Shown here: positions 10,301-57,791 of the stretch, piece after piece
How positions within the stretch are numbered: the stretch's first letter is position 1
Layout of the letters: each line of letters starts with the position of its first letter
DNA from: Halichondria panicea
Taxonomy: Eukaryota; Porifera; Demospongiae; Suberitida; Halichondriidae
Direction: 5' to 3'
Assembly: GCF_963675165.1 (NCBI RefSeq)
Contig: NC_087382.1
Location: 5,309,963 to 5,373,962, forward strand
Length of the DNA: 64,000 nt
The notes under the pieces: model-generated
The model's database searches: none
Told to the model about the DNA's origin: nothing
Seen by the model: only the letters and a program-made list of their open reading frames with translations
Position numbers and translations under genes: made by a program

Positions 10301-13300
10301 AATCCACCATTTCTGGAAGTTGCGTTCTTTTATATAGCTGGAAAGTATGCTTAATAATGTGAAGCATGCTATGCTTGCCAAAGTAACATTGAACAGGAGA
10401 AGAAACGCTCCCTTAGAGTAAAACCATCTTACTTGATAGTGACATTTGCAGCGGTGTCTTGTGTTTGGTAGATTACTTGTAGAATTGAACTGATTCATTT
10501 CTCTCGAACTTGCAAATCATATGCACTAAATCAAATGAACCAAACTATTGTTGATGTTCATTCATGCTTAAAAGAAACACATGTCATGTGTGTATATGTA
10601 GTACTTCATTGTTTTCATGGAAAATGAAAGGTACAGTGCAGTAACTGTGCATGCATGCATGGGCGTTCGTTTTTCTTGCTATTCGTAATCTGCTCAGTTA
10701 GTAGTTTTCTAGAGCCTGAATATACTATTACCGTGACACTATCCCGTGATAACATGCAGCTATGAAATATGAAATAGGCAAATAGTGACTTTGCAGGTGA
10801 CCTAAATATTGATGCACTGGAATTCGTACAGTGAAACAAAGTCTGAATACCATAACACAATAGTGGGTCAACTTGGCGAGGAAATTCGTTTGGCAAATCT
10901 TGATAGGATTAATTATGTTCTTTTGATTGCGCACGTAATCAACAATGCATGCTAAGCAAAATCCCTAATTTATAGAATGTGCATGCAATTGCTATAGCAG
11001 CTTGCCATGTTTTCCCACTATCTTATTATAATTATATTTTATGGAAATGTCTTGTGTTATTGCATGGATGCCATTGAGTTAATTTGGGGACAAGTTCACC
11101 TTTACGTGTGTATATCGCTGCAGTTGGTGTCAAGCGTGACAGGGAACAAAAGTTGTGTGTCCAGCATTGCAGAGTCCAACGTCCTGCAGTACCTCTTACT
11201 GGTGCTCTACATGCTTCCCACTTGTAAGTCGCTATACATGACCGTGTAAATATCCTTTGCAGCTAGTATATGAATTTACCAGTTCAACTTTTGAGTGAAG
11301 GACACTTATAACTCCAGAGATTCACTGATTTTTATCCCCATGAATCGAGCCTGTACACAACCACTATACATACAGCGTGCATGCATGACATGGCTTCTTA
11401 TAATTATATCGCTTTGGCTTGTGTTGCAGCCCATGAATTGGTACTGGAAGTGTTCCAAGCCCTCACTTCAAACACTCAGATTGTCAAGGAGAGCATTCAA
11501 AAAGGTTGGGCTTGCATTACACACACATTACTTGACACAGTGTTTATATAATTTAGGTGTCCTGTACAGTAAGTTCCTCTTACTGCATGACGTAAACTAT
11601 CATTGCCATGCATGCACATTATCTTCCATTCTACATGCATTACCTTAATATGTACATGTATAAGCACAATGCATTTCAGAGACCATCCGTAAATATAATA
11701 CCTGCGATCTGCCATCATAATAATATGTAACAACAAGAATGCCTTGCCTGGTTGCATGGTTGGAGTTAGTATAGTATTATACACGTACAGACAACACAGG
11801 AAAACTATACTAACTGGTGTACTACTCAAGGCTCCTCTGCCCATACAGGTGCCCTGATTTACCTCCTTCAGTTGTTCTGCAACTCTCAGAACCCGACCGT
11901 TCGTGAAGAGACTGCCTCCCTTCTTGCCAAGATGATCACCGACAAATTAGTGGGTCCTAAAGTGAGAATTGTCCTTTCCAAGTTCTTACCTCTCATCTTC
12001 ATGGACGCCATGCGAGACAACTCTGAGGCCAGCGTTCACATGTTCGAGAGTGAGTAAACACAAATTAAGGATTAAACTGTGAATTGGTAGCTTCCTAAAT
12101 AAGTACCAAAGGGTCACGCTCTATAGGAAATTGCATTAACAGTTACTGGTATCATAGTTTGAAAACATGTTTTGTTTGTGAATTTAGGTGTTTTAGTTCT
12201 CTTGCTCAATTAAAAAAAGAACCTCTTTTTACATAAAGTGTGAAATGGTGGTGTAGCTTCGTTAATTAAGGTCACGCTTAAGTGCATTAACGGTTACTGG
12301 TATGTAGGTTGAAAGCCAGGTTGTTTTCTTTGTGTAAAACACACGAAATAAATGCACGCAGTTACTTTCATTATATTATTATTCGTTGTTTTAGTTATCT
12401 TGCTCAATTAAAAGAAACTCTTTGTAATTTCAGACAATCAGGAGAACCCGGAGCTGATTTGGAACGACGAGGCCAGAGAGAAAGTGTCGGGAGTAGTGTC
12501 TAAAATGAACAAGGAGTGAGTTGAGGGTTTCGATGGTTTACGTTGTATTGACTCGGGTTATGGAGTGTTGTTCACGAAAACAATTCAGAAGGGTCCCTGA
12601 TGTGTGATGGATTGTGAATATATGTAGTCACTAGCTAACTTTGAATGGCCATAAACTATTCAAATCCAAAAGTAAAAAGATGCATTCTGTAGCTGTATAA
12701 CGATCTCATGGTATTATGTTACTTTTTTCCCTATAATAGGTTCTTCCTCAAGCAGAAGGAAGACCCCGACACTCTGTGGAGGTTGCCCGACAATTTTGAG
12801 GTGGTCTATTCACAGGTACAAGGGGAGATCATGGTGGGCGGAGTCTTCTTAAGGATATTTATATCGCAGCCTACTTGGGTGAGTGTCAAGTGATCGACTA
12901 GATGCTCCTAGCTATTGCTGTTAATTATGCGTTGTATGATTATGTACGTGTCTGCCTTTACATGTAGTATAATTTTATTGTGTAGGTTCTGAGGAAACCA
13001 AAGGAGTTTCTGATATCACTACTCGACAAGTTTGGACAGCTCTCACAGTCTGCTCATCCTGATGTGAGTGAATATTTTATGTGCTAAATGTGTGTGCGTT
13101 TTATAGTAAAAATTAGTCACATACTGTTGTTACGGAGTATGTTACGGTACATTTGTTGAGGGGTTAATTAGAAAAGATATGCAATTATTAAAATGTACGT
13201 ATAATAAATTTGTTGTTACACCAAAATTCCATTCAAATTTATTCTGCGTTTACACTGTATAACTCCAATTGTCAGACTTACTACCTAACCCCCCCCCTCC

Positions 13301-14564
13301 AGGGAGAGATCCTGGAAACAGTGACAGAGGCTTGTGTTTGTCTCTTTACTGCCCAACCATCACTAGCGGACCAGGTAAGCTCCTAGAGTGATGGAAGCTA
13401 GCCCCCCTTAACGATCACCCGTGGGTGGTGGAAAGGTCAACCATGCATGCATGTACCATAACAAATTGTTCCATAACAAATTGTTCTTGTTCCAGGTTCC
13501 ACCGCTGGGTCACATTCCCAGGATCCTGGCCCGAATGAAGGCTGACAACGAAGTTATTCCAAAAGCTTGTCTTCAGGTCACGCACATACTGGCAGACAGT
13601 GAGGTAAAAATACAATACATTCATAATACAACTGTACAAGTAATAAGAGTCAAACGTACCTGCTACACGTTATGTACTGTTGCTCACCATTCTCATTTAC
13701 CTTTGATTTAGTGAAGCACTTTTTCTATTTAAGCTTGCGGGTTGCACAAAATTATTGAATGTGTCAAGCTTGTCTTAGTTTCTCTTTTTCTGTGGTTACT
13801 GTACCAGCAAAATAATAATTTAACTCGATAAGCATCAATTTTTATTTTCTATTGCCAGTATTGAGTTGGTTGTTACAGTTTCTCTTAACTTTCACAGGTT
13901 TGTGTGCGAACGATGTCCAAGTGTGACACAGTGGTTCCGTTGATCTGTGCCATGAAGAAGAGGAAAGACAGTGTACACGTTGCCGCAGAGACCATCAAAA
14001 AGCTATATGACCTCATGATTCCCGAGCTAGTGGTACAGGTATGTGAATCGTATGGAATACTAGGAACTATAATTGATTGACATATTCACATAAGTGTTAA
14101 TAAGTGACTCATCCCTGTTCCACGTACACAGGCCGTGAATGGAGAGTTGATCCCGTTCCTACTGAAGCTGCTTGAGGATCCTCTGTCTGAGTGTGACAAG
14201 CCGTCAGCCGCTAAAGCACTCATAGCTGAGTCCCTCAAAAACATGGCTAAAGACCTTGCCAATGGAGAGAGGGTAAGTACATAGCTCAACAAATAGTACC
14301 CTACAGATTATTCATAGTTGAACCATAATTATGTATACAGCTTGAGGATGTACCTGTACATGTACATTGTAGCTCTTCTATGATCATTAGTATGAACCGA
14401 AACTCAACCTAAATAAGCACATGTGTAGACAAAAATTAATGATGATCGCTCCCTATAGTTATTGCATGTGTTTCACTGACAATTTGTGTGAATTTGCTTA
14501 TCAATACATTTCAATCTTGGTTGCCAGGAAGTTTAACGAATCACACGCTCACCCACCCCCTTCT

Positions 14565-14598
<34 letters not shown>

Positions 14599-14835
14599 CC
14601 ACAGATATTAGAGATACTGGAAAAATCCCCTGTGTGGTCGGCGTACAAAGACCAGAAACATGATCTCTTTCTCTCCAACACGACTGTATCTGGTTACCTT
14701 ACGGGTCCGTCTGGCGTAGCTGGTTACCTCACTGCTGGAAGCTCATCGTCGGCTAACAATGCAAACAGTTCTGCCCCACCCCCACTAGAGCCGCCGGAGG
14801 ACACACCCACTGGCGATGATGACGATGATGACTAG
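203..14835 (+). CDS. DNAJC13: DNAJC13 / RME-8 (endosomal DnaJ protein), 3' half, 26 exons, 5' part lies outside the window
   Basis: Known role of the family: a large J-domain cochaperone on early endosomes that recruits Hsc70 and works with sorting nexin/retromer and WASH in receptor recycling. Exons read with GT/AG borders: 203-488, 924-1005, 1151-1305, 1607-1726, 2023-2138, 2427-2505, 2781-2916, 3194-3378, 4313-4504, 5669-5912, 6255-6364, 6718-6831, 7143-7259, 7600-7734, 8114-8254, 11124-11223, 11430-11504, 11849-12049, 12434-12515, 12740-12878, 12986-13063, 13303-13374, 13496-13603, 13898-14038, 14132-14272, 14605-14835. They total 3580 nt and give 1192 residues without a break, an internal check on the model. 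Recognisable family blocks are [16 protein letters not shown], the J domain with its [12 protein letters not shown] and the terminal [14 protein letters not shown]. The protein ends in an acidic D-rich tail and a TAG stop. Human DNAJC13 is about 2240 residues, so roughly the C-terminal half is present. Confidence 0.95.
770..858. repeat. Short TA-flanked inverted-repeat element (CCGTATAGC family) in DNAJC13 intron
   Basis: About 90 bp in the intron after exon 203-488. The left arm (GGTAATTTTCGTGGGGCAAAA-like, from about 770) is inverted against the right arm, which ends TTGCTATACGGTA at 858. The left terminus looks clipped relative to the right one. The end sequence matches the elements at 51817-52085 and 59006-59239. 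Confidence 0.6.
2023..2916 (+). other. DNAJC13: J-domain-encoding exons of DNAJC13
   Basis: Exons 2023-2138, 2427-2505 and 2781-2916 carry the J domain. The first leads in with a QAYDTLGL helix-I-like start. The second holds [20 protein letters not shown] with the invariant HPD needed to stimulate Hsp70 ATPase. The third gives [13 protein letters not shown]. As in RME-8 generally, the J domain lies internally rather than at the N terminus. All key residues are present, so cochaperone activity is expected. Confidence 0.93.
3529..4070 (+). mobile_element. Non-autonomous inverted-repeat element (TGCCTCGGTG ends) with terminal hairpin, in DNAJC13 intron 8
   Basis: The ends TGCCTCGGTG (3531-3540) and CACCGAGGCA (4044-4053) are perfect 10-bp inverted repeats. 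Beyond the right repeat lies a small palindrome, AGCACC-TGC-GGTGCT (4056-4070). The interior has a CGCATGCGC motif, a TG/TC-rich run and no convincing coding sequence. It is the same family, in opposite orientation, as 33011-33516, and related to 44407-45575. It sits wholly in the 3379-4312 intron and should not disturb splicing. Confidence 0.75.
4263..4302 (+). repeat. (AC)n microsatellite next to a 3' splice site
   Basis: An uninterrupted CA/AC dinucleotide run directly upstream of the acceptor of exon 4313-4504. Similar runs lie just before the acceptors of exons 5669 and 14605. Confidence 0.9.
4855..5595. mobile_element. Candidate TIR element in DNAJC13 intron 9
   Basis: GAAAGGGGATTGGAAACGA at 4855-4873 is a perfect 19-bp inverted repeat of 5577-5595. 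The enclosed 700 bp has no clear coding sequence. No target duplication was recognised, and a further CAGGGATACAAA-like motif occurs inverted near 4970-4985, so the true boundaries may be more complex. It lies inside intron 4505-5668. Confidence 0.55.
5640..5667 (+). repeat. (AC)n microsatellite forming the polypurine/pyrimidine lead to an acceptor
   Basis: An AC dinucleotide run that ends in the AG acceptor of exon 5669-5912. Confidence 0.9.
6010..6240 (+). repeat. Degenerate minisatellite (CCATTAGCTGTGTACGTACATGT-like units)
   Basis: Seven or so imperfect units of about 25-35 bp fill most of the intron between exons ending at 5912 and starting at 6255. Each combines an ATTAGCTGT core with a TACATGTA palindrome-rich stretch. 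There is no coding potential. Confidence 0.75.
6607..6714 (+). repeat. C/T-rich low-complexity tract before exon 6718
   Basis: About 100 bp of CTCCC/CCTCC repeats forms an exceptionally long polypyrimidine tract ending at the acceptor of exon 6718-6831. Confidence 0.9.
8945..10498 (-). CDS. POT/PTR (SLC15-like) transporter family protein, single exon, nested antisense in DNAJC13 intron 15
   Basis: A 517-residue uninterrupted frame with an ATG at 10498-10496. By family it is a multi-span proton-coupled oligopeptide/nitrate-type carrier, with substrate unknown. It shows hydrophobic spans throughout. The [14 protein letters not shown] motif matches the POT loop after TM2, and [12 protein letters not shown] followed by an aromatic helix matches the second POT region. 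There is a central cytosolic loop with [19 protein letters not shown] and a basic tail [15 protein letters not shown]. The classic ExxER proton-coupling motif of TM1 is not visible: the equivalent stretch reads [10 protein letters not shown]. It lies wholly inside intron 8255-11123 on the opposite strand. It is the most divergent copy in its membrane segments, yet its loop and tail are nearly identical to those of the array genes at DNA level. The lack of introns suggests a retrocopy origin (inference). Confidence 0.85.
   Translation of the reverse strand: MNQFNSTSNLPNTRHRCKCHYQVRWFYSKGAFLLLFNVTLASIACFTLLSILSSYIKERNFQKWWIGIPVCLFGLLASVISGWVADARLGNYKVLRIGWILLFLTKMAFSAFFLVPTNLQNYYVAYTLFTLGGSIFMVGLVASIVTSLQLGLDQMPDASSSSITAFIAWYIFSIFVGVWLSFIAVYCFSKSCTSVLHNTNSTQLLLIVPPLCMSIILVLDFILAKSWLIIEPNSPQAIKTIYQVLKFAAKHKAPLNRSALTYWEEDVPSRMDLGKSRYGGPFTTEQVEDVKTILRLFTLSISLWFVCFPLMLNNSRMIAKINPLGSTYCNSLLIGLVTYNTWWYGMICTLINEFVIYPVFRNKFPSILKRIGLVSFVNTILNIAFLVIHLSLTQYSMNKQMVVIILYLTSISNGLLRMILICAMLELVCAQAPYRMRGLLTGYTNVLVLMFYIIEINLELDLKYSLVIFGVKTGISLFGFILYCLLARWYKRRVRDEDYNVQAVVEEVYDRYLSAQH
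10499..11123. other. Intron 15 remainder and 5' flank of the antisense POT-like gene
   Basis: AT-rich sequence with no recognisable gene or repeat. It should contain the promoter and 5' UTR of the antisense transporter gene and ends at the acceptor of DNAJC13 exon 11124. Confidence 0.5.
14566..14597 (+). repeat. (AC)n microsatellite before the last DNAJC13 exon
   Basis: An AC run upstream of the acceptor of exon 14605-14835. Its length varies between the duplicated copies: short near 28800 and long near 38231-38256. It is a useful copy-specific marker. Confidence 0.85.
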
Positions 14836-16330
14836 CTGTATCTTAGGTTGTTATATAATTATATTTGAGTTGTGAGTACAAAAACTGCTTTCTATTTTTA
14901 AAGTCTGTAATAATTAATAATTGTATCGTGGATTTTGAGGTACATGACATAATACATTTTAATTTTGATTATGGTAAAGATCATGCAGTTGAAAACTGAT
15001 AATCATGTATGACTGTGAAAGTGTCTCTTTGTGATGTCAGGAGTGCATGAATATTGAGTCATGCACTCCTAGGTCCTGGTGATATGAACTGTACGTGATT
15101 TGGATCTGAGGCAGTTCTTAGTTCAGATTAAAATTCGCATTAAATTTATGCATGCATGCATATCGGCGTGTTCCTCTGGAATGATGGTGCATGGCGCTTA
15201 TGAATAATCAAACAGCTGCCGGATGAAAACGGATGTACGAAAAACAAGAAGCTGATTTTTCACCCGACAATGTATAGGTCTACCTATGAAAAAAAATTTG
15301 GCATGACATTTGCAATATAATTTATGATCTGTGTCTGATAAATTGCTGTTGAAGTTCCACCATGCTCTAGTGTAAATTATTGTTTTTATGTCAGGTAACC
15401 TGCATGAACGTATATGCATGATTGTCTTCAGCATATCAAGTCTCTGCATGCATGATGTAAACCACATTGAAAATAATAACCAACACCAACCCATTTTGTT
15501 TACGTCCTTTTAATTTAACCATTAGCTACATGCTTATTTTAACTCCAACTGTGTTCCTTAGTTTGAAGAACTGAAGAGATATCATTGAGCGGCTCAGCCA
15601 GCCCTATACTTCCTATATACCATTTTAGAAAACTTCCTTATTTGTACACTTTTTCCTCACTTTAGATTGCTTTTTTCTATTTTCGACTCAACCCTAATAC
15701 TAATGTGTCTCGTATAGACAGACGTCTAAGGCTTGACAAATATACAACTGCTATATATATGGTATAATTATACTTGATATTTCTCTGTGGCTGTTTTAGT
15801 TTCATTTTCCAGTATATAATTATAATTATGTATTAGACGGTACAATTATATGAATGTGGTATGAGGTTTGTTTTGACCGTTAATGGGAGAGGTATTTTGT
15901 TTTTCCAAATGCACATATTCACCATTCTGCCATGTAGTATATATGCAAACAGTTTGTCAATGGGCACTTTATTTTGATGCATTTTGAGCTTGTATTAACA
16001 ATCGATGGGATATTAATACTGAAAATTAAAGCAATAACATGACTCTGCTCATGACTATATTTAGACAAAGTAGTAAATCACTTCGTTCAACATTTACATA
16101 CGTACATGTGCATTGCTGCATGATTGTGTATCTTCATGTGCATATAATTATATATAGGCCTGCTGCAAGAACTATAGTTTTACTCAGGAACGCAATCCAA
16201 TTAATAGCCAATAGATGCATTGCTTCATGCAGCTATAGTACCTAATTATATAGTTACATGAAACTCTCCTAGTTACAGTATTTAATTTAGTGTTTAGCAG
16301 CCATCTCTACATGTGCACTGTGTGAGTGTT
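14836..16330 (+). other. DNAJC13 3' flank / spacer to the POT-like gene (duplicated at 29055-30524, 38496-39954 and 44327-46924)
   Basis: This begins as the DNAJC13 3' UTR and continues into AT-rich spacer. No supported coding gene is seen. It contains the hairpin at 15039-15070. The same sequence recurs downstream of each DNAJC13 copy with small indels; the fourth occurrence carries a 1.17-kb insertion. The segment 15841-16330 is the immediate 5' flank of the POT-like gene. Confidence 0.7.
15039..15070. other. Perfect 12-bp stem-loop downstream of DNAJC13
   Basis: AGGAGTGCATGA and TCATGCACTCCT form a perfect stem with an 8-nt loop (ATATTGAG). Copies are at 29260-29291 and 45700-45731 (perfect), and at 38699-38730, where one arm has a C-to-T change. 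It could be a 3' processing structure, a small hairpin RNA or a remnant repeat; the sequence does not decide. Confidence 0.6.
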
Positions 16331-17891
16331 ATGAGACAAACTAACTCTACGAGCGAAGGCAGTCCTCTGGTATCGAGGAATGGCTGCAAGTGCAAGTACA
16401 GAGTGAGGTGGTTCTATTCCAAGGGAGCATTTCTTATTCTGGTCTGGAATATACTAGCTGTTGACCATAGCCTGTATGTCAGTGTCTCATATATTCCGTA
16501 AACGACATGATGTCAATTTTGTAACTTCAGAATGGCAACTTGCTATCCCTATTGTGTTCAGTTTTTTTGGAGCTGTTTTCTCAGGATGGCTAGCTGACGC
16601 TAAGCTGGGGAACTACAGAGTGATGAAATACAGTTTTGTACTGTTATTTCTTACAACTTTGCTTTCTAGTGCCGCCACCCTAGTTCCTGGCGTTGCTCAT
16701 TACGTGTATGTTGTGAGTGTCGTGTACTGCATAGGTGGGAGTCTCTCTATAGTAGCTGTGGTAGCATGCTTTATTACCTTATTACAGCTTGGCCTGGATC
16801 AGATGCCTGATGCTTCATCTTCCAATATCACTAGTTTTATTGCCTGGTTTGCATTCAGTATCTATGCTGGTATTTGGATCCCGAATGTTTCCAATTTACC
16901 CATTATATCTGGTACTTTGTGTAGTCAAATACCATACCGGGTTGTCCAACTTTACAGTTTGTTGCCACCTTTGTGTATGAGTGCTGTTCTTATTCTTGAC
17001 TTCCTACTAGCTAAGAAATGGCTTATAATTGAGCCAAAGTCACCTCAGTCTCTAACAACCATCTACCGTGTTCTCAAGTTTGCAGCCAAGCACAAGGCTC
17101 CCCTCAATCGCAGTGCTCTCACATACTGGGAGGAAAACGTACCTTCAAGAATGGACCTGGGAAAGTCAAGATACGGTGGACCATTCACTACAGAGCAAGT
17201 TGAAGATGTGAAGACCATCCTACGTTTGTTACCCTTATGTTTAACACTATGGCTTCTTGGGTACTCACTTGCAATATTCCGTCCACCACATGAATCATTG
17301 TATCTCCCCGATGTGAATAGTATATATGTTTCAGAGCTTCTGGCCTTAATCACATACAACTCTTGGTGGTGTGGTATGGTTTGGACGGTCTTTTATGAAT
17401 TTATTCTATACCCTGTGATTCGTAATAGGCTTCCCAGCATTCTTAGAAAAATCGGAATCATTTCTTTCTTAATCACGGCTCTCAACATTGTGTTTGCAAT
17501 TCTAGGACTAGTCCACTACTATCACAGTGATTTAGTGGCAGTTCATTATGTCATTGTGATATTACATTCAGTTTCTCAAGGTTTGTTCATGATGTTGCTT
17601 GCTAGTGCCATGCTGCAGTTAGTTTGTGCTCAGGCTCCATACAACATGAGAGGAGTGTTTGGAGGGTGTATGGCACTTGTGTTGATGTCACCTTCATTTA
17701 TCAGCGATTCTTTTCCATTGAAATTCACATTAACGATATTATATGGGATTAAAGCCGCTGTCAGTCTGCTTGGATTCATCGTGTACTGCCTCCTGGCTCG
17801 CTGGTACAAAAGGAGAGTTAGAGACGAGGACTACAATGTACAAGCTGTTGTGGAGGAGGTGTATGATCGATACTTGTCAGCTCAACATTGA
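16331..17891 (+). pseudogene. POT-like transporter gene with a 4-bp frameshifting insertion
   Basis: The ATG at 16331 opens MRQTNSTSEG as in its paralogues. After about 40 codons, 4 extra bases (AGCT, about 16455-16458) relative to the sister genes put the rest in another frame. That frame is then open to the stop at 17889-17891. Re-initiation at the ATG near 16476 would give a protein of about 471 residues lacking the first membrane segment. All later features are intact: [24 protein letters not shown], the [16 protein letters not shown] loop and the [13 protein letters not shown] tail. A real null allele, a usable shorter protein and a sequence error are all possible. Confidence 0.75.
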
Positions 17892-19925: not shown

Positions 19926-20250
19926 GATGAGGACACAAGCTTTGTGGAGGAGCTCTATATGATCTGACACGTTTTTTTATCATCTGCATGTCTGTCAATC
20001 ATGCATGTATGTCGTAGAATGTAAATGTGTTACTACATTATACAAAAATTTTATTTTTCATTTGTTGTGTTTCCACACATAATTATTTTCATCAGTAGAT
20101 CTCTATATACAGTCATGCAATTTGTCAATGGACACCTCTGATAATAATTAGCTTGTCTGCATGTGTTAACGATCGATTGTATGTACGAATCTGAAACTAA
20201 ACTTCTAATAGCAACATGATTCCTTTGAAGTTCCACTATAATTAAGTAGA
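19926..20250. other. Spacer after P1 pseudogene
   Basis: AT-rich; no gene seen. It matches spacers after the other decayed copies (34881-35177, 43430-43865, 50511-50832, 55818-56236). In the paralogues it runs straight into the 5' flank of a POT-like gene. Confidence 0.55.
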
Positions 20251-21489
20251 GATGTCAGACCGGAAGTATTGCGTGGGCGTATTTTCGTACAGTAGGTAAA
20301 AACCTGACCAGAAAGTGAGTGAACAAGAAGGGCTTTCCGCAAGCCCTGGAAGAGTCTAGCAAACAACAGCTGTTCCCAGGGGTAAAAAATAGCGTAGAAT
20401 TTGATTTTTATAACAGTTTTTATGATTTTAGCATTTGATGCTTGTTCTGTGTGTGATTTTTTCTCAAAGGTGATCATCATTTTCTCAACCAAACATGAAA
20501 ATGAACAAAAACACAAGTGAGCATGTCTTTTATCTCTAACTCTCTCCAGATTATGCAAAAAGTTGCTACAATAAGCTTTTATTTCTTGCGGAATCACATA
20601 TTGCATGGATAGATGGGTGGAGCTGAGAATAGAAATGCAGTAAAATCAAGCCAAGTGTACCAATTGCTGTATTTATTTCTTAGAAGTTCTTAGAAGTTAC
20701 TGATAGTAATTATTGAAAGCCTCTGTTGAAAAGAAACAAGAAAAATTGAAGAGAATTCCAGGGACAACAATGTAATCTACCAAAACTATTAAATTGCAAG
20801 AACTGATTCAATTTGCACACAAAACAACACAAGAGTAATCTACTGTATTAATTAGAAGCTGTCAACAGAGTGTATCATAGATTTATAGTTGTATGGCCTT
20901 AAATCTACATCACACTAATAACGAATTATTTAGACCAAATGAAATTGACAGCTTTTAAAGATCAAGAAACAGATACAAGCGTAGGTGGACATTGATGAGA
21001 GTTCTGAAACAAGATACCATATACTGTACGAAATAAAAGATAGCATGGTTACTTTAAATCCAAAAGAACTCTCTGAAGCAGGAGACATCATACCATTATA
21101 GGGACATCATAAAGTGAATCGAGGCTACAGATATGCTAACTTTAAGATCATTTCCGGTATTAACAACAATTTCATAAGTCCCGCCCAAGTACATTAAAAT
21201 GCAGTAAATTTTTGTACAAATTTTTTCCTAACTATAGTGTTCTTCAAAACACTGTATCTCTGCATTCGCTTGACCAAATCTAGCCTCGATCCCAGGCCGA
21301 GTTTTCGCTTTTATAACGGTTAGGCGAACAACCTGTTTGCCTAACCGTTATAAAAGCGAAAACTCGGCCTGGGATCGAGGCTAGACCAAATCCAGTGCAG
21401 TAAAGTTTTTCTGGTTTGCCTGGAGTGTTCAAAAGAGATAGTAATACATAGGAGTTAGAAATAGCAAAAATGAAAATCGGTCTGACATC
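20251..21489. mobile_element. TIR-bearing non-autonomous DNA element (GATGTCAGACCG ends), carrying a nested foldback element
   Basis: GATGTCAGACCG at the left end is inverted as CGGTCTGACATC at the right end. The paralogous spacers near 43745 and 56105 run across the position without it, so it is an insertion. A 133-residue antisense open frame inside has no recognisable domain. Removing the nested insertion and its target duplication (112 bp) leaves 1127 bp, exactly the core length of the copy at 50833-52230. Confidence 0.75.
21281..21383. mobile_element. 103-bp near-perfect foldback element with 9-bp target duplication
   Basis: Two perfect 45-bp arms, beginning TAGCCTCGATCCCAGGCC and ending with its complement, surround a 13-nt loop. 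The flanks are GACCAAATC repeated at 21272-21280 and 21384-21392. The paralogous sequence near 52125 has one GACCAAATC and no insert, giving a direct empty-site comparison. Confidence 0.92.
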
Positions 21490-21602
21490 GCTATTATAAG
21501 AACCACACAGTATAGTTACAAATCATTGCAATACTAGATTTTGCTCTCCTATAGTTTCAACAATAGTGTTGGCAGCCATCCCTACATGTGTGTGCATCTG
21601 TT

Positions 21603-23144
21603 ATGAGACAAACTAACTCTACGAGCGAAGGCAGCCCTCTGGTATCAAGGAATGGCTGTTGCAAGTACAGAGTGAGATGGTTTTATTCCAAAGGAGCATT
21701 TCTCGTTCTGGTCTGGATTATGCTGTTGACTATAGCCTGTATATCAGTGTCTCATATATTTCGTAACGTCAATTTTGTAATTTCAAAATGGCTATTTGCT
21801 ATTCCTATTGTGTTTTGTTTGTTGGGAGCTGTTTTCTCAGGATGGCTAGCCAACGCTAAGCTGGGGAACTACAGCGTGATGAAATACAGTTTTGTACTGT
21901 TGTTTCTTACAACTTTGTTTTCTAGTGCCGTCACCCTAGTTCCTGGCATTGCTCATTACGTGTATGTTGTGAGTGTCGTGTACTGCATAGGCGGGAGTCT
22001 CTCTATAGTAGCTGTGGTAGCATGCTTTGTTACCTTATTACAGCTTGGCCTGGATCAGATGCCTGATGCTTCACCTTCCAATATCACTAGTTTTATTGCC
22101 TGGTTTGTATTCAGTATCTATGCTGGTGTTTGGATCCCGAACGTTTCTAATTTACCCATTTCATCTGGTACTTTGTGTAGTCAAATGCCATACTGGGTTG
22201 TCCAACTTTACAGTTTGCTGCCACCTTTGTGTATGAGTGCTGTTCTTATTCTTGATTTTCTCCTAGCTAAGAAATGGCTTATAATTGAGCCAAAGTCACC
22301 TCAGTCTCTAACAACCATCTACCGTGTTCTCAAGTTTGCAGCCAAGCACAAGGCTCCCCTCAATCGCAGTGCTCTCACATATTGGGAGGAAAACGTACCT
22401 TCGAGAATGGACCTGGGAAAGTCAAGATATGGTGGACCATTCACTACGGACCAAGTTGAAGATGTGAAGACCATCCTACGTTTGTTACCCCTCTGCTTAA
22501 CACTATGGCTTCTTGGGTGCTCACTTGCAATATTCCATCCACCACATGAAACATTGTATCTCCCCGATATGAACAGTTATGTTTCAGAGCTTCTGGCCTT
22601 AATCACATACAACTCTTGGTGGTGTGGTATGGTTTGGACTGTCTTTTATGAATTTATTCTATACCCTGTGATTCGTAATAGGCTTCCCAGCATTCTTAGA
22701 AAAATCGGAATCATTTCTTTCTTAATCACGGCTCTCAATATTGTGCTTGTAATTCTAGGACTAGTCCACTACTATCACAGTGATTTAATGGAAGTTCATT
22801 ATGTCATTGTGATATTATATTCAGTTTCTCAAGGTTTGCTCACAATGTTGCTTGCTAGTGCCATGCTGCAGTTAGTTTGTGCTCAGGCTCCATACAACAT
22901 GAGAGGAGTGTTTGGAGGGTGTATAACATTTGCGTTGATGTCACCTTCGATTATCAGCCATTCTTTTCCATTGAAATTCACATTAAGAATATTATATGGG
23001 ATTAAAGCCGCTGTCAGTCTGCTTGGATTCATCGTGTACTGCCTCCTGGCTCGCTGGTACAAAAGGAGAGTTAGAGACGAGGACTACAATGTACAAGCTG
23101 TTGTGGAGGAGGTGTATGATCGATACTTGTCAGCTCAACATTGA
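21603..23144 (+). CDS. POT/PTR (SLC15-like) transporter family protein, single exon
   Basis: An intact 513-residue frame. The start is the ATG of MRQTNS; upstream in-frame codons include only GTG, not ATG. It has about 12 hydrophobic spans. Counted on the closely similar 517-residue paralogue at 39955, the [11 protein letters not shown]-type loop falls near residues 83-93 (here with N for D: GWLANAKLGNY), [10 protein letters not shown] near 151-160, the cytosolic loop near 232-295, and the basic tail from about 485. The N replacing the POT-motif aspartate is unusual and may affect transport. Its closest relative is the gene at 52356, which keeps the D. TM1 lacks an ExxER motif. Substrate unknown. 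Confidence 0.85.
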   Translation: MRQTNSTSEGSPLVSRNGCCKYRVRWFYSKGAFLVLVWIMLLTIACISVSHIFRNVNFVISKWLFAIPIVFCLLGAVFSGWLANAKLGNYSVMKYSFVLLFLTTLFSSAVTLVPGIAHYVYVVSVVYCIGGSLSIVAVVACFVTLLQLGLDQMPDASPSNITSFIAWFVFSIYAGVWIPNVSNLPISSGTLCSQMPYWVVQLYSLLPPLCMSAVLILDFLLAKKWLIIEPKSPQSLTTIYRVLKFAAKHKAPLNRSALTYWEENVPSRMDLGKSRYGGPFTTDQVEDVKTILRLLPLCLTLWLLGCSLAIFHPPHETLYLPDMNSYVSELLALITYNSWWCGMVWTVFYEFILYPVIRNRLPSILRKIGIISFLITALNIVLVILGLVHYYHSDLMEVHYVIVILYSVSQGLLTMLLASAMLQLVCAQAPYNMRGVFGGCITFALMSPSIISHSFPLKFTLRILYGIKAAVSLLGFIVYCLLARWYKRRVRDEDYNVQAVVEEVYDRYLSAQH

Positions 23145-32985: not shown

Positions 32986-33010
32986 ATGAGACAAACTAAC
33001 TCTATACGAA

Positions 33011-45102: not shown

Positions 45103-45480
45103 TTTCTTGAGGGCCTGGTAAGCCACAAAACACTACTATAGATAACAATATGCATGTACACAAGTCTTTTCTTCTTAAATATTATAATTATACACTGCAT
45201 GAACTACAGATCCAATTTTCTTCTTTCTTGAGGTCCTGGTATTAAAGCCACATAATACAACAATAGATGCATGTAATAAGTCTTTTCTTCTCAGTGACTT
45301 TATAATTAGATAAGCTAACTTTATGAAATAATTATGCACTTTTCCGCTTATAATTAATTGAAAACAAAATCTTCTTTGTTGCTTCCTAGATCCTTGAGGT
45401 CCTGGTATAAGCAGCCACAAAACACAACAATGATACCATAATTATACAATTGCAAGTCAGTTTTAGACAGATTATTTTAT
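45103..45480 (+). repeat. Three imperfect tandem units of about 130 bp
   Basis: Each unit begins with a TTGAGG(G/T)CCTGGTA stretch, followed by GCCACA-AA-ACA and a CAAGTC(T/A) piece, starting near 45107, 45229 and 45392. No coding potential; it lies inside the 1.17-kb insertion. Confidence 0.6.
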
Positions 45481-45575
45481 ACACTTTTTCCTCTTCTATA
45501 CTTTCTCTTCTATACTTTTGAGCGAAAGCAAATCATGGCGAGAGGCATTAGCACAGCGCCAGCTTGAACACTAGT

Positions 45576-46924
45576 TAATAATTGTATCGTGGATTTTGAG
45601 GTACATGACATATTACATTTTAATTTTGATTATGGTAAAGATCATGCAGTTGAAAACTGATAATCATGTATGACTGTGAAAGTGTCTCTTTGTGATGTCA
45701 GGAGTGCATGAATATTGAGTCATGCACTCCTAGGTCGTGGTGATGTGAACTGTACGTGATTTGGATCTGAGGCAGCTCTTAGTTCAGATCAAAGTTCGCA
45801 TTAAATTTATGCATGCATGCATATCGGCGTATTCCTCTGGAATGATGGTGCATGGCGCTTATGAATAATCAAACAGCTGCCGGATGAAAACGGATATACG
45901 AAAAACAAGAAGCTGATTTTTCACCCGACAATGTATAGGTCTACTTATGAACAACATTATAATTAAAAATGATAGTCCATGCAATTCTAAAAAAAATTTG
46001 GCATATGACATTTGCAATATAATTATGATCTGTGTCTGATAAATTGCATAATATTCTGTTGAAGTTCCACCATGCTCTAGTGTAAATCATTGTTTTTATG
46101 TCGGGTAACCTGCATGAACGTATATGCATGATTGTCTTCAGCATATCAAGTCTCTGCTGCTCATACTGCATGCCAACACCAACCCATTTTGTTTACGTCC
46201 TTTTAATTTAACCATTAGATCTAGCTACATGCTTATTTTAACTCCAACTGTGTTCCTTAGTTTGAAGAACTGAAGAGATATCATTGAGCGGCTCAGCCAG
46301 CCCTATACTTCCTCCCATTTTAGCCTTATTTGTACATTTTCTTCCCCAAATCGTATACATTTAGATCGCTTTTTTCTATTTTCGACTCAACCCTAATACT
46401 AGACGTCTAAGGCTTGACAAATACAAGTGCTATACGGTATAATTATACTTGATATTTCTCTGTGGCTGTTTTAGTTTCATTTTCCAGTATATATATAATT
46501 ATGTATTAGATGGTACAATTATATTAACTGTATGAATGTGGTATGAGGTTTGTTTTGACCTTTAATGGGAGAGGTATTTTGTTTTTCCAAATGCACATAT
46601 TCACCATTCTTCGCCATGTAGTATATATGCAAACAGTTTGTCAATGGGCACTTATTTTGATGCTTTTTGAGCTTGTATATTTCAATCAATGGGATATTAA
46701 TACTGAAAATTAAAGCAATAACATGACTCTGCTCATGACTATATTTAGTCAAAGTAGTAAACCACTTCGTTCAACATTTACATACGTACATGCACAAGTG
46801 CATTGCATGATTGTGCATGCATGTATCTTCATGCATATGCATATATATAGGCCTACTGCAAGAACTATATTTAGTATTAGTGTTTAGCAGCCATCCCTAT
46901 ATACATGTGCACTGTGTGTCTGTT
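45576..46924 (+). other. Duplicate of the DNAJC13-to-POT spacer (after insertion)
   Basis: It resumes the 14836-16330 type sequence, with the stem-loop at 45700-45731. It is nearly identical to 38590-39954 except for a small deletion near 46170. No gene supported. Confidence 0.65.
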
Positions 46925-48478
46925 ATGAGACAAACTAACTCTACGAGCGGAGGCAGCCCTCTGGTATCAAGGAATGGCTGTTGCAAGTACAGAGTGAGGT
47001 GGTTCTATTCCAAGGGAGCATTTCTTGTTCTGGTCTGGAATATGCTGTTGACCATAGCCTGTATGTCAGGGTCTAATATATTCCGTAAACGACATGATGT
47101 CAATTTTGTAATTTCAGAATGGCAACTTGCTATCCCTATTGTGTTCGGTTTTTTTGGAGCTGTTTTCTCAGGATGGCTAGCTGACGCTAAGCTGGGGAAC
47201 TACAGAGTGATGAAATACAGTTTTGTACTGTTATTTCTTATAAGTTTGCTTTCTAGTACCGTCACCCTAGTTCCTGGCATTGCTCATTACGTGTATGTTG
47301 TGAGTGTCGTGTACTGCATAGGCGGGAGTCTCTCTATAGTAGCTGTGGTAGCATGCTTTGTTACATTATTACAGCTTGGCCTGGATCAGATGCCTGATGC
47401 TTCATCTTCCAATATCACTAGTTTTATTGCCTGGTTTGTATTCAATATGTATGCTGGTGTTTGGATCTCAAACGTTTCCAATTTACCCATTATATCTGGT
47501 ACTTTGTGTAGACAAATGCCATACTGGGTTGTCCAACTTTACAGTTTACTGCCACCTTTGTGTGTGAGTGCTGTTCTTATTCTTGATTTTCTCCTTGCTA
47601 AGAAATGGCTGATAATTGAGCCAAAGACATCTCAGTCTCTAACAACCATCTACCGTGTTCTCAAGTTTGCAGCCAAGCACAAAGCTCCCCTCAATCGCAG
47701 TGCTCTCACATATTGGGAGGAAAACGTACCTTCAAGAATGGACCTGGGAAAGTCAAGATATGGTGGACCATTCACTACAGAGCAAGTTGAAGATGTGAAG
47801 ACCATCCTACGTTTGTTACCCTTATATTTAACACTATGGCTTCTTGGGTGCTCACTTGCAATATTCCGTCCACCACATGAATCATTGTATCTCCCCGATG
47901 TGAATAGTATATATGTTTCAGAGCTTCTGGTCTTAATCACATACAACTCTTGGTGGTGTGGTATGGTTTGGACGGTCTTTTATGAATTTATTCTATACCC
48001 TGTGATTCGTAATAGGCTTCCCAGCATTCTTAGAAAAATCGGAATCATTTCTTTCTTAATCACGACTCTCGACATTGTGTTTGTAATTCTAGGACTAGTC
48101 CACTACTATCACAGTGATTTAATGGCAGTTCATTATGTCATTGTGATATTACATTCAGTTTCTCAAGGTTTGTTCATGATGTTGCTTGCTAGTGCCATGC
48201 TGCAGTTAGTTTGTGCTCAGGCTCCATACAACATGAGAGGAGTGTTTGGAGGGTGTATGGCACTTGTGTTGATGTCACCTTCATTTATCAGCGATTCTTT
48301 TCCATTGAAATTCACATTAACGATATTATATGGGATTAAAGCCGCTGTCAGTCTGCTTGGATTCATCGTGTACTGCCTCCTGGCTCGCTGGTACAAAAGG
48401 AGAGTTAGAGACGAGGACTACAATGTACAAGCTGTTGTGGAGGAGGTGTATGATCGATACTTGTCAGCTCAACATTGA
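46925..48478 (+). CDS. POT/PTR (SLC15-like) transporter family protein, single exon
   Basis: An intact 517-residue frame from the MRQTNS ATG, near-identical to 39955-41508. Differences include FRKRHD for FHIRHD, CRQMPY for CSQMPY, PKTSQ for PKSSQ, PLYLT for PLCLT, and TTLDIVF for TALNIVF. All family motifs are intact. It is followed by a retroelement-bearing decayed copy, the TIR element and the gene at 52356, the same order as after the gene at 16331. Confidence 0.87.
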   Translation: MRQTNSTSGGSPLVSRNGCCKYRVRWFYSKGAFLVLVWNMLLTIACMSGSNIFRKRHDVNFVISEWQLAIPIVFGFFGAVFSGWLADAKLGNYRVMKYSFVLLFLISLLSSTVTLVPGIAHYVYVVSVVYCIGGSLSIVAVVACFVTLLQLGLDQMPDASSSNITSFIAWFVFNMYAGVWISNVSNLPIISGTLCRQMPYWVVQLYSLLPPLCVSAVLILDFLLAKKWLIIEPKTSQSLTTIYRVLKFAAKHKAPLNRSALTYWEENVPSRMDLGKSRYGGPFTTEQVEDVKTILRLLPLYLTLWLLGCSLAIFRPPHESLYLPDVNSIYVSELLVLITYNSWWCGMVWTVFYEFILYPVIRNRLPSILRKIGIISFLITTLDIVFVILGLVHYYHSDLMAVHYVIVILHSVSQGLFMMLLASAMLQLVCAQAPYNMRGVFGGCMALVLMSPSFISDSFPLKFTLTILYGIKAAVSLLGFIVYCLLARWYKRRVRDEDYNVQAVVEEVYDRYLSAQH

Positions 48479-50510: not shown

Positions 50511-50832
50511 GATGAGGAAACAAGCTTTGTGGAGGAGCTCTATATGATCTGACACGTTTTTTTCATCATCTGCATGTCTGTCAATCATGCATGTATGTCG
50601 TAGAATGTAAATGTGTTACTATATGATACAAAAATATTATTTTTCATTTGTTGTGTTTCCACACATAATTATTTTCATCAGTAGATCTCTATATACAGTC
50701 ATGCAATTTGTCAATGGACACCTCTGATAATAATTAGCTTGTCTGTGTTAACGATCGATTGTATGTACGAATCTGAAACTAAACTTCTAATAGCAACATG
50801 ATTTCTTTGAAGTTCCACTATAATTAAGTAGA

Positions 50833-52230
50833 GATGTCAGACCGGAAGTATTGCGTGGGCGTATTTTCGTACAGTAGGTAAAAACCGGACCAGAAAGTGA
50901 GTGAACAAGAAGGGCTTTCCGCAAGCCCTGGAAGAGTCTAGCAAACAACAGCTGTTCCCAGGGGTAAAAAATAGCGTAGAATTTGATTTTTATAACAGTT
51001 TTTATGATTTTAGCATTTGATGCTTGTTCTGTGTGTGATTTTTTCTCAAAGGTGATCATCATTTTCTCAACCAAACATGAAAATGAACAAAAACACAAGT
51101 GAGCATGTCTTTTATCTCTAACTCTCTCCAGATTATGCAAAAAGTTGCTACAATAAGCTTTTATTTCTTGCGGAATCACATATTGCATGGATAGATGGGT
51201 GGAGCTGAGAATAGAAATGCAGTAAAATCAAGCCAAGTGTACCAATTGCTGTATTTATTTCTTAGAAGTTCTTAGAAGTTACTGAAAGTAATTATTGAAA
51301 GCCTCTGTTGAAAAGAAACAAGAAAAATTGAAGAGAATTCCAGGGACAACAATGTAATCTACCAAAACTATCAAATTGCAAGAACTGATTCAATTTGCAC
51401 ACAAAACAACACAAGAGTAATCTACTGTATTAATTAGAAGCTGTCAACAGAGTGTATCATAGATTTATAGTTGTATGGCCTTAAATCTACATCACACTAA
51501 TAACGAATTATTTAGACCAAATGAAATTGACAGCTTTTAAAGATCAAGAAACAGATACAAGCGTAGGTGGACATTGATGAGAGTTCTGAAACAAGATACC
51601 ATATACTGTACGAAATAAAAGATAGCATGGTTACTTTAAATCCAAAAGAACTCTCTGAAGCAGGAGACATCATACCATTATAGGGACATCATAAAGTGAA
51701 TCGAGGCTACAGATATGCTAACTTTAAGATCATTTCCGGTATTAACAACAATTTCATAAGTCCCGCCCAAGTACATTAAAATGCGGTAAATTTTTGTACG
51801 AATTTTTTCCTAACTACCGTATAGCGGGTATATTTCGAGGGTATAAATGTTCGCGGTTTTCGCGGATTGAGCCTGTACCGCGAAAATTTATACCCACGAA
51901 AATTTATAATAGTAGGTGTGTTCAGTATTATGGATTCGAGGCTAACAGTGGAGTGGTACAGCTGCATGTTGATGTGCGCATGCGCCAAAAGGCTGGAACT
52001 CAGACCACGAAAATAAAATCCGCGAAATCCTTTGTAATGGTCCATCCGCGAAAATTTATACCCTCGAAATATACCCGCTATACGGTATAGTGTTCTTCAA
52101 AACACTGTATCTCTGCATTCGCTTGACCAAATCCAGTGCAGTAAAGTTTTTCTGGTTTGCCTGAAGTGTTCAAAAGAGATAGTAATACATAGGAGTTAGA
52201 AATAGCAAAAATGAAAATCGGTCTGACATC
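50833..52230. mobile_element. TIR-bearing non-autonomous DNA element, second copy, carrying a nested TA-flanked MITE
   Basis: GATGTCAGACCG at the left and CGGTCTGACATC at the right. The length is 1398 bp; subtracting the nested MITE and its TA duplication (271 bp) leaves 1127 bp, exactly as in 20251-21489. The two copies differ by scattered substitutions only, and came with the block duplication rather than by separate insertion. Confidence 0.77.
51817..52085. mobile_element. 269-bp MITE with CCGTATAGCGGGTA ends and TA target duplication
   Basis: The ends are inverted repeats of about 40 bp, starting CCGTATAGCGGGTATATTTC. The flanks are TA at 51815-51816 and 52086-52087. The paralogous copy near 21235 reads ...AACTATAGTG without the insert, so the empty site is directly visible. 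TA duplication is typical of Tc1/mariner-type integration. Confidence 0.92.
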
Positions 52231-52355
52231 GCTATTATAAGAACCACACAGTATAGTTACAAATCATTGCAAATCAAAATCTCTACTGAGATTTTGCTCT
52301 CTTATAGTTTCAACAATAGTATTGGCAGCCATCCCTACATGTGTGTGCATCTGTT

Positions 52356-53897
52356 ATGAGACAAACTAACTCTACGAGCGAAGGCAGCCCTCTGGTATCA
52401 AGGAATGGCTGTTGCAAGTACAGAGTGAGGTGGTTTTATTCCAAAGGAGCATTTCTCGTTCTGGTCTGGATTATGCTGTTGACTATAGCCTGTATATCAG
52501 TGTCTCATATATTTCGTAACGTCAATTTTGTAATTTCAAAATGGCTATTTGCTATTCCTATTGTGTTTTGTTTGTTGGGAGCTGTTTTCTCAGGATGGCT
52601 AGCCGACGCTAAGCTGGGGAACTACAGCGTGATGAAATACAGTTTTGTACTGTTGTTTCTTACAACTTTGCTTTCTAGTGTCGTCACCCTAGTTCCTGGC
52701 ATTGCTCATTACGTGTATGTTGTGAGTGTCGTGTACTGCATAGGTGGGAGCCTCTCTATAGTAGCTGTGGTAGCATGCTTTGTTACCTTATTACAGCTTG
52801 GCCTGGATCAGATGCCTGATGCTTCATCTTCCAATATCACTAGTTTTATTGCCTGGTTTGCATTCAGTATCTATGCTGGTGTTTGGATCCCGAACGTTTT
52901 CAATTTACCCATTATATCTGATACTTTGTGTAGTCAAATGCCATACTGGGTTGTTCAACTTTACAGTTTACTGCCACCTTTGTGTGTGAGTGCTGTTCTT
53001 ATTCTTGACTTTCTCCTTGCTAAGAAATGGCTTATAATTGAGCCAAAGTCACCTCAGTCTCTAACAACCATCTACCGTGTTCTCAAGTTTGCAGCCAAGC
53101 ACAAAGCTCCCCTCAATCGCAGTGCTCTCACATATTGGGAGGAAAACGTACCTTCGAGAATGGACCTGGGAAAGTCAAGATATGGTGGACCATTCACTAC
53201 GGAGCAAGTTGAAGATGTGAAGACCATCCTACGTTTGTTACCCCTCTGCTTAACACTATGGCTTCTTGGGTGCTCACTTGCAATATTCCATCCACCACAT
53301 GAAACATTGTATCTTCCCGATGTGAATAGTTATGTTTCAGAGCTTCTGGCCTTAATTACATACAACTCTTGGTGGTGTGGTATGGTTTGGACGGTCTTTT
53401 ATGAATTTATTCTATACCCTGTGATTCGTAATAGGCTTCCCAGCATTCTTAGAAAAATCGGAATCATTTCTTTCTTAATCACGGCTCTCAACATTGTGCT
53501 TGTAATTCTAGGACTAGTCCACTACTATCACAGTGATTTAATGGCAGTTCATCATGTCATTGTGATATTATATTCAGTTTCTCAAGGTTTGCTCACAATG
53601 TTGCTTGCTAGTGCCATGCTGCAGTTAGTTTGTGCTCAGGCTCCATACAACATGAGAGGAGTGTTTGGTGGGTGTATAACACTTGTGTTGATGTCACCTT
53701 CGATTATCAGCGATTCTTTTCCATTGAAATTCACATTAACAATATTATATGGGATTAAAGCCGCTGTCAGTCTGCTTGGATTCATCGTGTACTGCCTCCT
53801 GGCTCGCTGGTACAAAAGGAGAGTTAGAGACGAGGACTACAATGTACAAGCTGTTGTGGAGGAGGTGTATGATCGATACTTGTCAGCTCAACATTGA
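52356..53897 (+). CDS. POT/PTR (SLC15-like) transporter family protein, single exon
   Basis: An intact 513-residue frame from the MRQTNS ATG; the in-frame codons just upstream give no ATG. It is the sister of 21603-23144: both share a 4-residue shorter stretch after the first span (FRNVNFV). It keeps the [11 protein letters not shown] aspartate that the sister has lost. The loop [15 protein letters not shown] and the tail are intact. The 3' flank follows as in other units. Confidence 0.87.
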   Translation: MRQTNSTSEGSPLVSRNGCCKYRVRWFYSKGAFLVLVWIMLLTIACISVSHIFRNVNFVISKWLFAIPIVFCLLGAVFSGWLADAKLGNYSVMKYSFVLLFLTTLLSSVVTLVPGIAHYVYVVSVVYCIGGSLSIVAVVACFVTLLQLGLDQMPDASSSNITSFIAWFAFSIYAGVWIPNVFNLPIISDTLCSQMPYWVVQLYSLLPPLCVSAVLILDFLLAKKWLIIEPKSPQSLTTIYRVLKFAAKHKAPLNRSALTYWEENVPSRMDLGKSRYGGPFTTEQVEDVKTILRLLPLCLTLWLLGCSLAIFHPPHETLYLPDVNSYVSELLALITYNSWWCGMVWTVFYEFILYPVIRNRLPSILRKIGIISFLITALNIVLVILGLVHYYHSDLMAVHHVIVILYSVSQGLLTMLLASAMLQLVCAQAPYNMRGVFGGCITLVLMSPSIISDSFPLKFTLTILYGIKAAVSLLGFIVYCLLARWYKRRVRDEDYNVQAVVEEVYDRYLSAQH

Positions 53898-56236: not shown

Positions 56237-57791
56237 ATGAGACAAAGTAACTCTACGAACGAAGCCAGCCCTCTGGTATCAAGGAATGGCTGTTGCAAGT
56301 ACAGAGTGAGGTGGTTCTATTCCAAGGGAGCATTTCTCGTGCTGGTCTGGGTTATGCTGTTGACTATAGCCTGTATATCAGTGTACCATGTGTTCCATCA
56401 ACAACCTTATGTCAATTCTGTAATTTCGAAATGGCTACTTGCTATCCCACCTGTGTTTGGTTTGTTCGGAACTGTTTTCTCAGGATGGTTAGCTGACGCT
56501 AAGCTTGGGAACTACAGAGTGATGAAATACAGTTTTGTGCTGTTATTTCTTATAAGTTTGTTTTCTAGTACCGCCACCCTAGTTCCTGGCATTGCTCATT
56601 ACGTGTATGTTGTGAGTGTCGTGTACTGCATTGGTGGGAGTATCTCTATAGTAGCTGTGGTAGCATGCTATGTTACTTCACTACAACTTGGCCTGGATCA
56701 GATGCCTGATGCTTCATCTTCCAATATCACTAGTTTTATTGCCTGGTTTGCATTCAGTATCTATGCTGGTGCTTGGATTCCTTATGTTGTCGATTCACCC
56801 ATTATAGCTGGTACTTTGTGTAGCAGTCAATTACCATACTGGGTTGTTCAACTTTACAGTTTACTGCCACCTTTGTGTTTGAGTGTTGTTCTTATTCTCG
56901 ATTTTCTCCTAGCTAAGAAATGGCTTATAATTGAGCCAAAGTCACCTCAGTCTCTAACAACCATCTACCGTGTTCTCAAGTTTGCAGCCAAGCACAAGGC
57001 TCCCCTCAATCGCAGTGCTCTCACATACTGGAAGGAAGACGTACCTTCAAGAATGGACCTGGGAAAGTTAAGATATGGTGGACCATTCACTACGGAGCAA
57101 GTTGAAGATGTGAAGACCATCCTACGTTTGTTACCCCTCTGCTTAACTCTATGGCTTCTTGGGTGCTCACTTGCAATATTCCATCCGCTAAACCATGCTT
57201 ATAGTGTTTATCATCCAGATTGGAATTGTTATGTTTCAAGGCTTCTGTCTTTGTTCACATATCACAATTTGTATGGTTTGGATAATCTTTTATGAATTTG
57301 TTCTATACCCAGTGATTTGTAACAAGCTTCCTAGCATCCTTAGAAGAATTGAGATAATTTCTCTCTTCAATATGACTCTCAGTATTGTGTTTCTAATTAT
57401 GGAACTACTACAAACCAATTTCGATGATTTAGATGCAATCAAGTATGTTACAATCGTCTTAACTTCAATTTCTAGAGGTTTGCTCACAATGTTGCTTGCT
57501 ACTACCATGCTGGAGTTAATTTGTGCTCAAGCTCCATACAACATGAGAGGATTGTTTGGAGGGTGTTTGGTGCTGGTGTTGTTCTCATCTTTTATTATTG
57601 GCTATTGCTTTCCATTGAACGTCAGACTCACAATATATGAGGTTATTATTAGAGTAGGCATCAGTCTGCTTGGATTTATCCTGTACTGCCTCCTTGCTCG
57701 CTGGTATAAAAGGAGAGTTAGAGACGAGGACTACAATGCACACAGAGTGGTGGAGGAGGTATATGATCGATATTTGTCAGCTCAGCATTGA
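56237..57791 (+). pseudogene. POT-like transporter gene, frameshifted and mosaic
   Basis: The ATG at 56237 opens MRQSNSTNEA, and the frame is open through the motif [12 protein letters not shown], the [13 protein letters not shown] region and the loop [15 protein letters not shown]. About 8 bp are missing near 57260-57270 relative to paralogues, in the TYNSWWCGMVW segment, and the frame is lost (stop at 57295). From about 57275 another frame continues to the normal stop. The part after the shift is much more divergent than the first part, until the near-identical [13 protein letters not shown] tail. It is likely a conversion or recombination mosaic. It is called a pseudogene unless the indel is a sequence error. 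Confidence 0.78.

Follow-up and report, generated by a model that had tools for sequence, protein, structure and literature searches.

The 64,000-nucleotide stretch analysed here (the window; forward strand of contig NC_087382.1, positions 5,309,963–5,373,962) comes from the sponge Halichondria panicea and contains the left part of a tandem array in which SLC15A4-like transporter genes have multiplied together with the 3′ end of a neighbouring gene, DNAJC13. The genome measures 131 Mb in 39 contigs and its genes are spliced. Positions are given on the scale of the window, extended beyond it where needed (contig C6 position less 5309962); outside the window, an adjoining 180 kb of C6 and a further 8 kb were examined. 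On this scale the array spanned 7954 to about 222,100 (~214 kb), of which ~158 kb, with six further DNAJC13 tails, lay beyond the right end of the window. Self-comparison by BLAST recovered the repeats at the places named in a preliminary description of this DNA: 11321–16179 was repeated at 25560–30472 (88.5% identity), 11807–16179 at 35478–39902 (90.1%), 14653–14916 at 44144–44407 and 14911–16179 at 45572–46872 (86.2%), the last two matches being separated by an insertion. Given their length and identity, these repeats were not due to chance, and the array proved larger than had been described.

The left edge of the array is formed by one apparently full-length DNAJC13 gene. The exon model covers its last 12 exons (a–l) at 8114–14835, with the stop codon at 14833–14835, the exons before 8114 falling outside the model. 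The Pfam domains RME-8_N, GYF_2 and DnaJ were all matched on separate pieces and thus lie within one locus, whose predicted identity is DNAJC13/RME-8. Positions 1–7953, the part of the gene covered by the search, occurred once in the genome, two transposon-like stretches aside, and a genome search with 471 of the 503 residues of the tail protein listed 94 matches, all within C6:5318076–5513871. The array itself is organized into four superunits, superunit 0 and three more to its right, each composed in order of a DNAJC13 tail, SLC15A4-like transporter genes and a gene with PMP repeats. This structure follows from the recurrence of the PMP-like gene, each time directly before a 12-exon tail. 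The features are as follows.

1–14835, + strand: right-hand part of the working DNAJC13 gene, whose start lies left of the window (consistent splice sites, one open frame, Pfam matches on pieces)
8945–10498, − strand: open SLC15A4-like gene inside the intron that separates DNAJC13 exons a and b (phmmer match to human SLC15A4, E 2.8e-11)
7954–64000, + strand, the last 111 bases running past the window to 64111: superunit 0 (DNAJC13 tail, transporter cluster, PMP-like gene), defined by the joint of PMP-like DNA to DNAJC13 7954 common to 64112, 137172 and 194658
14836–16327, + strand: spacer carried by the units, including an element at 15930–16060
25424–30472, + strand: tail C1 (exons c–l, from original 11262) and spacer; exon f frameshifted, exon e without its donor site
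35475–39902 (start at 35475 or 35478), + strand: tail C2 (exons d–l, from original 11807) and spacer; exon d without its acceptor site, exon i frameshifted
44144–46872, + strand: tail C3 (last 183 of the 231 bases of exon l) and spacer; insertion at 44408–45571
59282–64000, continuing to 64111, + strand: decayed copy of the right-hand PMP-like neighbour
start 64112: tail C4 (exons a–l, from 7954); exons d and e frameshifted, splice donors now GC (d) and AT (h)
start 137172: tail C5 (exons a–l, from 7954); acceptor of exon g lost, no frameshift
start 149501: tail C6 (exons g–l); frameshift in exon i
start 155760: tail C7 (exons c–l); same lesions as C1 (frameshift in f, lost donor of e)
start 173523: tail C8 (exons g–l); 8-base loss and 1-base loss in exon k
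start 194658: tail C9 (exons a–l, from 7954); frameshifts in b, in f and at the start of i

The nine tail copies thus started at five points of the original gene (7954, 11262, 11807, 12970 and 14653). A frame or splice lesion was present in each of the eight multi-exon copies, and the majority of their splice sites were still intact. The nested transporter travelled with the three 12-exon tails (copies at 65094, 138145 and 195655, two of the three with a broken frame). The decrease from 10 exons to 9 to a fraction of one, previously noted, is real inside the window (c–l, d–l, 183 of 231 bases). It is not a trend, since the three 12-exon copies starting from 7954 lie to the right of the window, and a steady shrinkage of the DNAJC13 part is rejected. 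The right-edge PMP-like neighbour, at about 217,600–222,100, had its frames in pieces, with Pfam Chlam_PMP repeats and a weak DUF7630 match. Its copies were found at 59.3–64.1, 132.3–137.2 and 189.6–194.7 kb, each directly ahead of a 12-exon tail, and a 5′ piece lay at 93.6 kb. In tail C9, an apparent CA dinucleotide repeat of up to ~1 kb occupied 202149–203113 (locus L014), compared with 32 bases in the original; it was deduced from matches stepping by two bases.

At 25424, 35475–35478 and 44144, DNA of a transporter gene or its flank abutted DNAJC13 DNA, so that three of the four unit starts of the preliminary description correspond to joints; the fourth, 11262, lies inside the working gene, at the left limit of the segment copied in one unit, and is not a joint. 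One joint was common to C1 and C7, another to C6 and C8, and C4, C5 and C9 shared the joint of PMP-like DNA to DNAJC13 7954, in which ~120 bp of filler with a hairpin was present. Three of the five joints therefore recur by descent, in two or three copies each. To the left of the four inner joints were a transporter flank (C1/C7), transporter coding sequence (C2 and C3) and the DNA before a PMP-like gene (C6/C8). The 5′ ends severed at C2 and C3 are:

35130–35477, + strand: transporter 5′ end severed at the C2 joint
43863–44147, + strand: transporter 5′ end severed at the C3 joint

Microhomology of 6, 4 and 7 bp was visible at three of the four inner joints, and the C2 joint had none, with three extra bases inserted. 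In a simple model, the chance of at least 4 bp at three of four joints is ~2e-5. We read the joints as probably the outcome of unrelated sequences being linked by end joining or replication switching, with homologous copying afterwards. The existence of five distinct joints on the DNAJC13 side means that new breakpoints were used, and the proposal that transporter genes and the DNAJC13 3′ end multiply together is borne out. The tails are natural tags, their five readable joints giving the order of the duplications.

New breakpoints in place of equal crossing over, as had been suggested, do not give a full account, because three joints go back to a common ancestor in two or three copies each, and the DNAJC13 parts form mosaics; homologous exchange also acted. 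Signs of non-allelic homologous exchange were seen in the shared joints and in mosaics detected in three of four sets by the pairwise homoplasy index (PHI). For the original with C1, C2, C4, C5 and C9 (87 informative sites) the index was below 1000 of 1000 permutations, and likewise below all 1000 in two further sets, one of them consisting of copies without the original (0/1000). Tails C4, C5 and C9 differed by 1–7% according to the segment, and the DNA left of their shared joint by 2.4–3.2%; the corresponding values were 1–5.5% and 1.7% for C6 and C8. The situation was reversed for C1 and C7, with 0–0.2% in the DNAJC13 part and 1.1% left of the joint. Tails and flanks therefore have separate histories. 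Despite their different joints, C2 and C5 were only 1.0–1.6% different over 12434–15500, and 6% different left of there. The working gene had site patterns in common with C4, C9, C1 and C5 in different stretches.

A protein-level selection signature persists in the tails despite truncation and lesions. The eight multi-exon copies compared with the original gave ratios of replacement to silent divergence (dN/dS) of 0.01–0.16, with dS of 0.067–0.086 and dN of 0.001–0.012. Changes private to one tail amounted to 36 silent, 23 replacement and no stop (eight copies, C3 included and C7, nearly a duplicate of C1, omitted; gapped codons and sites with fewer than three sequences dropped), and the original had 8 silent and no replacement. 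For this sequence neutrality predicts 2.4–3.2 replacement changes per silent one, i.e., ~42 replacements out of 59, and the departure is significant (P about 2e-7 at a ratio of 2.53). Tail C1, which bears two lesions, had seven private silent changes and no replacement. In the seven copies other than C3 and C7, exons also showed private changes at 0.45 times the rate of introns (58 of 8514 sites against 253 of 16,784; P 5e-9). In contrast, the other passengers look neutral: interior PMP-like copies had 12 silent changes, 39 replacements and 5 stops (17 unassignable sites dropped), and 12 decayed transporter fragments had silent-to-replacement counts of 3:10 private and 5:22 shared. The contrast with the tails was significant for both controls (P 2.5e-5 and 7e-5, respectively).

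The remaining transporter genes of the window, in addition to the nested one, are:

16328–17891, + strand: SLC15A4-like gene, frame broken near 16457
21600–23144, + strand: open SLC15A4-like gene
23966–24469, + strand: 5′-truncated transporter fragment
30522–32084, + strand: open SLC15A4-like gene
39952–41508, + strand: open SLC15A4-like gene
46922–48478, + strand: open SLC15A4-like gene
52353–53897, + strand: open SLC15A4-like gene
56237–57791, + strand: SLC15A4-like gene, frame broken near 57270

The open copies are single frames of ~515–520 amino acids. At least 87 transporter matches (pieces counted separately) were obtained in the genome, on contigs C6, C14, C5, C7 and C8, from the best 84 of 703 candidates. 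The kinship with SLC15 proteins was indicated by phmmer (the match to human SLC15A4 given above) and by a profile match (E 2.7e-18). Human SLC15A4 was the best match among solved structures and also first in Foldseek, yet it showed ~16% identity in the structural alignment; the template modelling (TM) score of about 0.50 comes from a low-confidence model (mean predicted local distance difference test, pLDDT, 50.7), for which reason the structure, compared for the twelve-helix MFS fold of POT/SLC15 transporters, lends weak support only. Pfam gave nothing for two transporters at E 0.001 and two chance-like matches for one at E 10, and NCBIfam gave no match. The ExxER motif in the first helix is a feature of the POT family; its glutamates were not seen near the first helix in a 14-row alignment of the transporters. 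Ten near-complete genes (the frame-broken 16328 included) had 34 silent and 83 replacement private changes and no stop, near the neutral ratio. Positive selection was considered and rejected, as pairwise dN/dS was 0.57 outside and 0.10 inside conserved blocks for nine open genes, and 0.50 and 0.15 for the three genes of a second subgroup, values that correspond to relaxed constraint. The blocks in question (residues 145–162, 238–296, 425–436 and 484–511) were far more conserved than the remainder in a comparison of window genes 8945–10498 and 52353–53897 with loci L003, L014, L019 and L023–L028. Identity at fourfold-degenerate sites in distant pairs, also between chromosomes, was ~57–87% inside them and ~24–50% outside, for which block-wise gene conversion, DNA-level constraint and codon bias (with no control for bias) are candidate explanations.

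The ~130-bp element at 15930–16060 was situated 134–272 bp before 24 of the 33 listed transporter starts, decayed ones included, and was not found so placed before the nine others (e.g., 21600, 52353 and 166290). Nineteen of its 43 matches lay elsewhere than before listed starts, and it also matched the DNA upstream of a transporter on contig C14. It may be part of a promoter. A second transporter array was observed at C14:3140000–3175999 (L019–L022), with a 20-kb step and 98% identity over at least 15 kb.

Other observations concern the surroundings. In the second superunit, a ~33-kb block at 94600–128000 (L004–L007) was almost devoid of array repeats and contained two long frames, of which the first showed COR-A and Roc matches short of the Pfam cut-offs and the second no match; the frames at 124.3–127.8 kb we take to be retroelement-like. 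A 133-codon frame on the minus strand existed in two copies (20205–20606 and 50787–51188) with two amino-acid differences, and that at 20205–20606 had no Pfam match. Within the DNAJC13 locus, the ~750-bp stretch at 4842–5595 had at least 37 further long matches of 94–97% on 14 contigs and appears to be a young mobile element, and a minisatellite with VEGSLLGRHWVQ-type repeats, one frame of which was open over long stretches, extended from −10477 to −9035 (L017 and L018).

We propose that the array arose as the DNA lying between DNAJC13 and the PMP-like gene to its right was duplicated head to tail again and again, and that it was retained for, or tolerated because of, the SLC15A4-like genes, a reason that is conjectural. 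The joints show that at least five duplications joined unrelated ends, three of them with microhomology of 4–7 bp. Their left ends fell at different places in the last 7 kb of DNAJC13, and each duplication therefore carried a different length of tail as a passenger. In later rounds three joints were recopied by homologous recombination, leading to four superunits and mosaic tails. The tail sequence would have been recently replaced by, or captured from, alleles of the working gene itself when array haplotypes underwent unequal crossing over or gene conversion. This hypothesis implies working alleles that differ by ~7% at silent sites, and lesions that arose afterwards. We consider the whole account, with joined duplications, homologous recopying and recent exchange of the tails with divergent working alleles, moderately probable. 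It is possible, though doubtful, that the tails even form a pool exchanging the last 500 codons with the working gene in both directions, the broken tails being kept young by re-seeding; the 3′ end of a single-presence gene would then evolve as part of a multigene array.

The low dN/dS of the eight multi-exon copies and the preservation of most splice sites could also mean that the tails are in use now, or were until very recently, as alternative 3′ ends joined by splicing to upstream exons of the working gene, or as separate truncated proteins, under direct selection. Tail C5, with all 12 exons, no frameshift and one lost acceptor, speaks for this view. Selection acting directly on each tail is hard to believe because of the lesions in all eight multi-exon copies and the starts at five unrelated points: C6 and C8 begin 16 bases ahead of exon g, C2 between exons c and d, and C3 within an exon. 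The tails are in addition up to ~187 kb from the working gene, with transporter genes in between, and direct use is quite unlikely. The same lesions and the truncated anatomy would suit plain pseudogenes decaying neutrally since they were copied, an explanation we rate equally low: 23 replacements were counted where ~42 of 59 would be expected, without a stop, in an array whose other passengers do look neutral. Conversion among the copies alone would account for mosaicism that is clear without the original, the low dN/dS being then due to chance or to a fault of majority polarisation. Non-working copies cannot selectively purge replacement changes, the rates of private changes differ between exons and introns, and the working copy shares in the mosaic; this explanation seems unlikely. 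Seeding of the tails from one working-gene lineage, followed by decay, was set aside, as by our own arithmetic it predicts ~1.3 replacements per silent change relative to the original, whereas 0.05–0.54 was observed in the eight multi-exon copies.

Long near-identical stretches, such as 21564–33018 and 151879–163339 (97.5%), and a divergence between copies that could be allelic in size might be expected if haplotypes of one locus had been placed end to end by the assembly, the circumstance that would have undone the preliminary description. Stacked haplotypes are rejected as the main account and rated very improbable: the part of the working gene at 1–7953 is single outside the transposon-like stretches, the 94 listed tail matches are confined to one region, and stacking would not create joints of transporter or PMP-like DNA to five points of DNAJC13. 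Partial mis-joins inside the array are possible. Several observations weigh against recent exchange with working alleles. Tails C6 (4:4 silent to replacement private changes) and C3 (0:1 private, and 1 silent and 3 replacement relative to the original) show little constraint individually; the counts are small, and changes were assigned by majority with no rooted tree. In the set containing C6 and C8, PHI was not significant (39 sites; value reached by 54 of 1000 permutations). The right-edge PMP-like gene is itself little constrained (4 silent, 9 replacement), so that this control shows that a neutral ratio is recovered and not that the copies escaped exchange. Finally, the ~7% silent divergence among working alleles is an assumption and the data represent one haplotype; as seeding from a single lineage predicts commoner replacement changes, the argument leans on a very diverse population. 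Such allelic divergence exists elsewhere, as in the octopamine receptor of the barnacle Balanus improvisus, for which dS of 0.061–0.12 and dN/dS of 0.042–0.11 were found within four single adults (PMC8270832). A look for heterozygosity in one sponge paper yielded no figure.

With one passenger constrained and others next to it decaying neutrally, decay can be told from exchange with the working gene. If recent exchange of the tails is confirmed, it would show that a growing array can draw the coding sequence of a neighbouring gene into concerted evolution, and exchange of alleles between array haplotypes could be read directly from the tails. No literature on this locus was present among the matches listed in open-licence papers. 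CYP21A2 and CYP21A1P are a gene–pseudogene pair exchanging DNA, and the present locus resembles them in that lesioned copies near a working gene trade sequence with that gene; it differs by its tails of five lengths distributed over ~190 kb. Partial gene duplicates resulting from duplication endpoints inside genes are reported to be frequent in worms and flies (PMC3449122, a review of 2012). The truncated DNAJC13 copies are of this type, but here a single array holds nine partial copies of one gene that show homologous exchange and constraint. The closest parallel is with the non-syntenic regions of Acropora, where, according to Takeuchi et al. 2025 (PMC12314368), clusters of gene families grow by recurrent tandem duplication attributed to non-allelic homologous recombination, and unrelated neighbour genes and transposons expand alongside by hitchhiking. 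In both cases one family is expanded in a cluster and unrelated neighbours, here the DNAJC13 tails and the PMP-like gene, are co-duplicated. Nowhere in the main text of that paper do the terms gene conversion, truncated, breakpoint or microhomology appear. In the sponge array one passenger is only the tail of a single-presence gene; its five joints are readable and show microhomology, and the broken copies bear a selection signature. The array therefore belongs to the coral kind, from which it differs by a constrained passenger and a readable series of joints.

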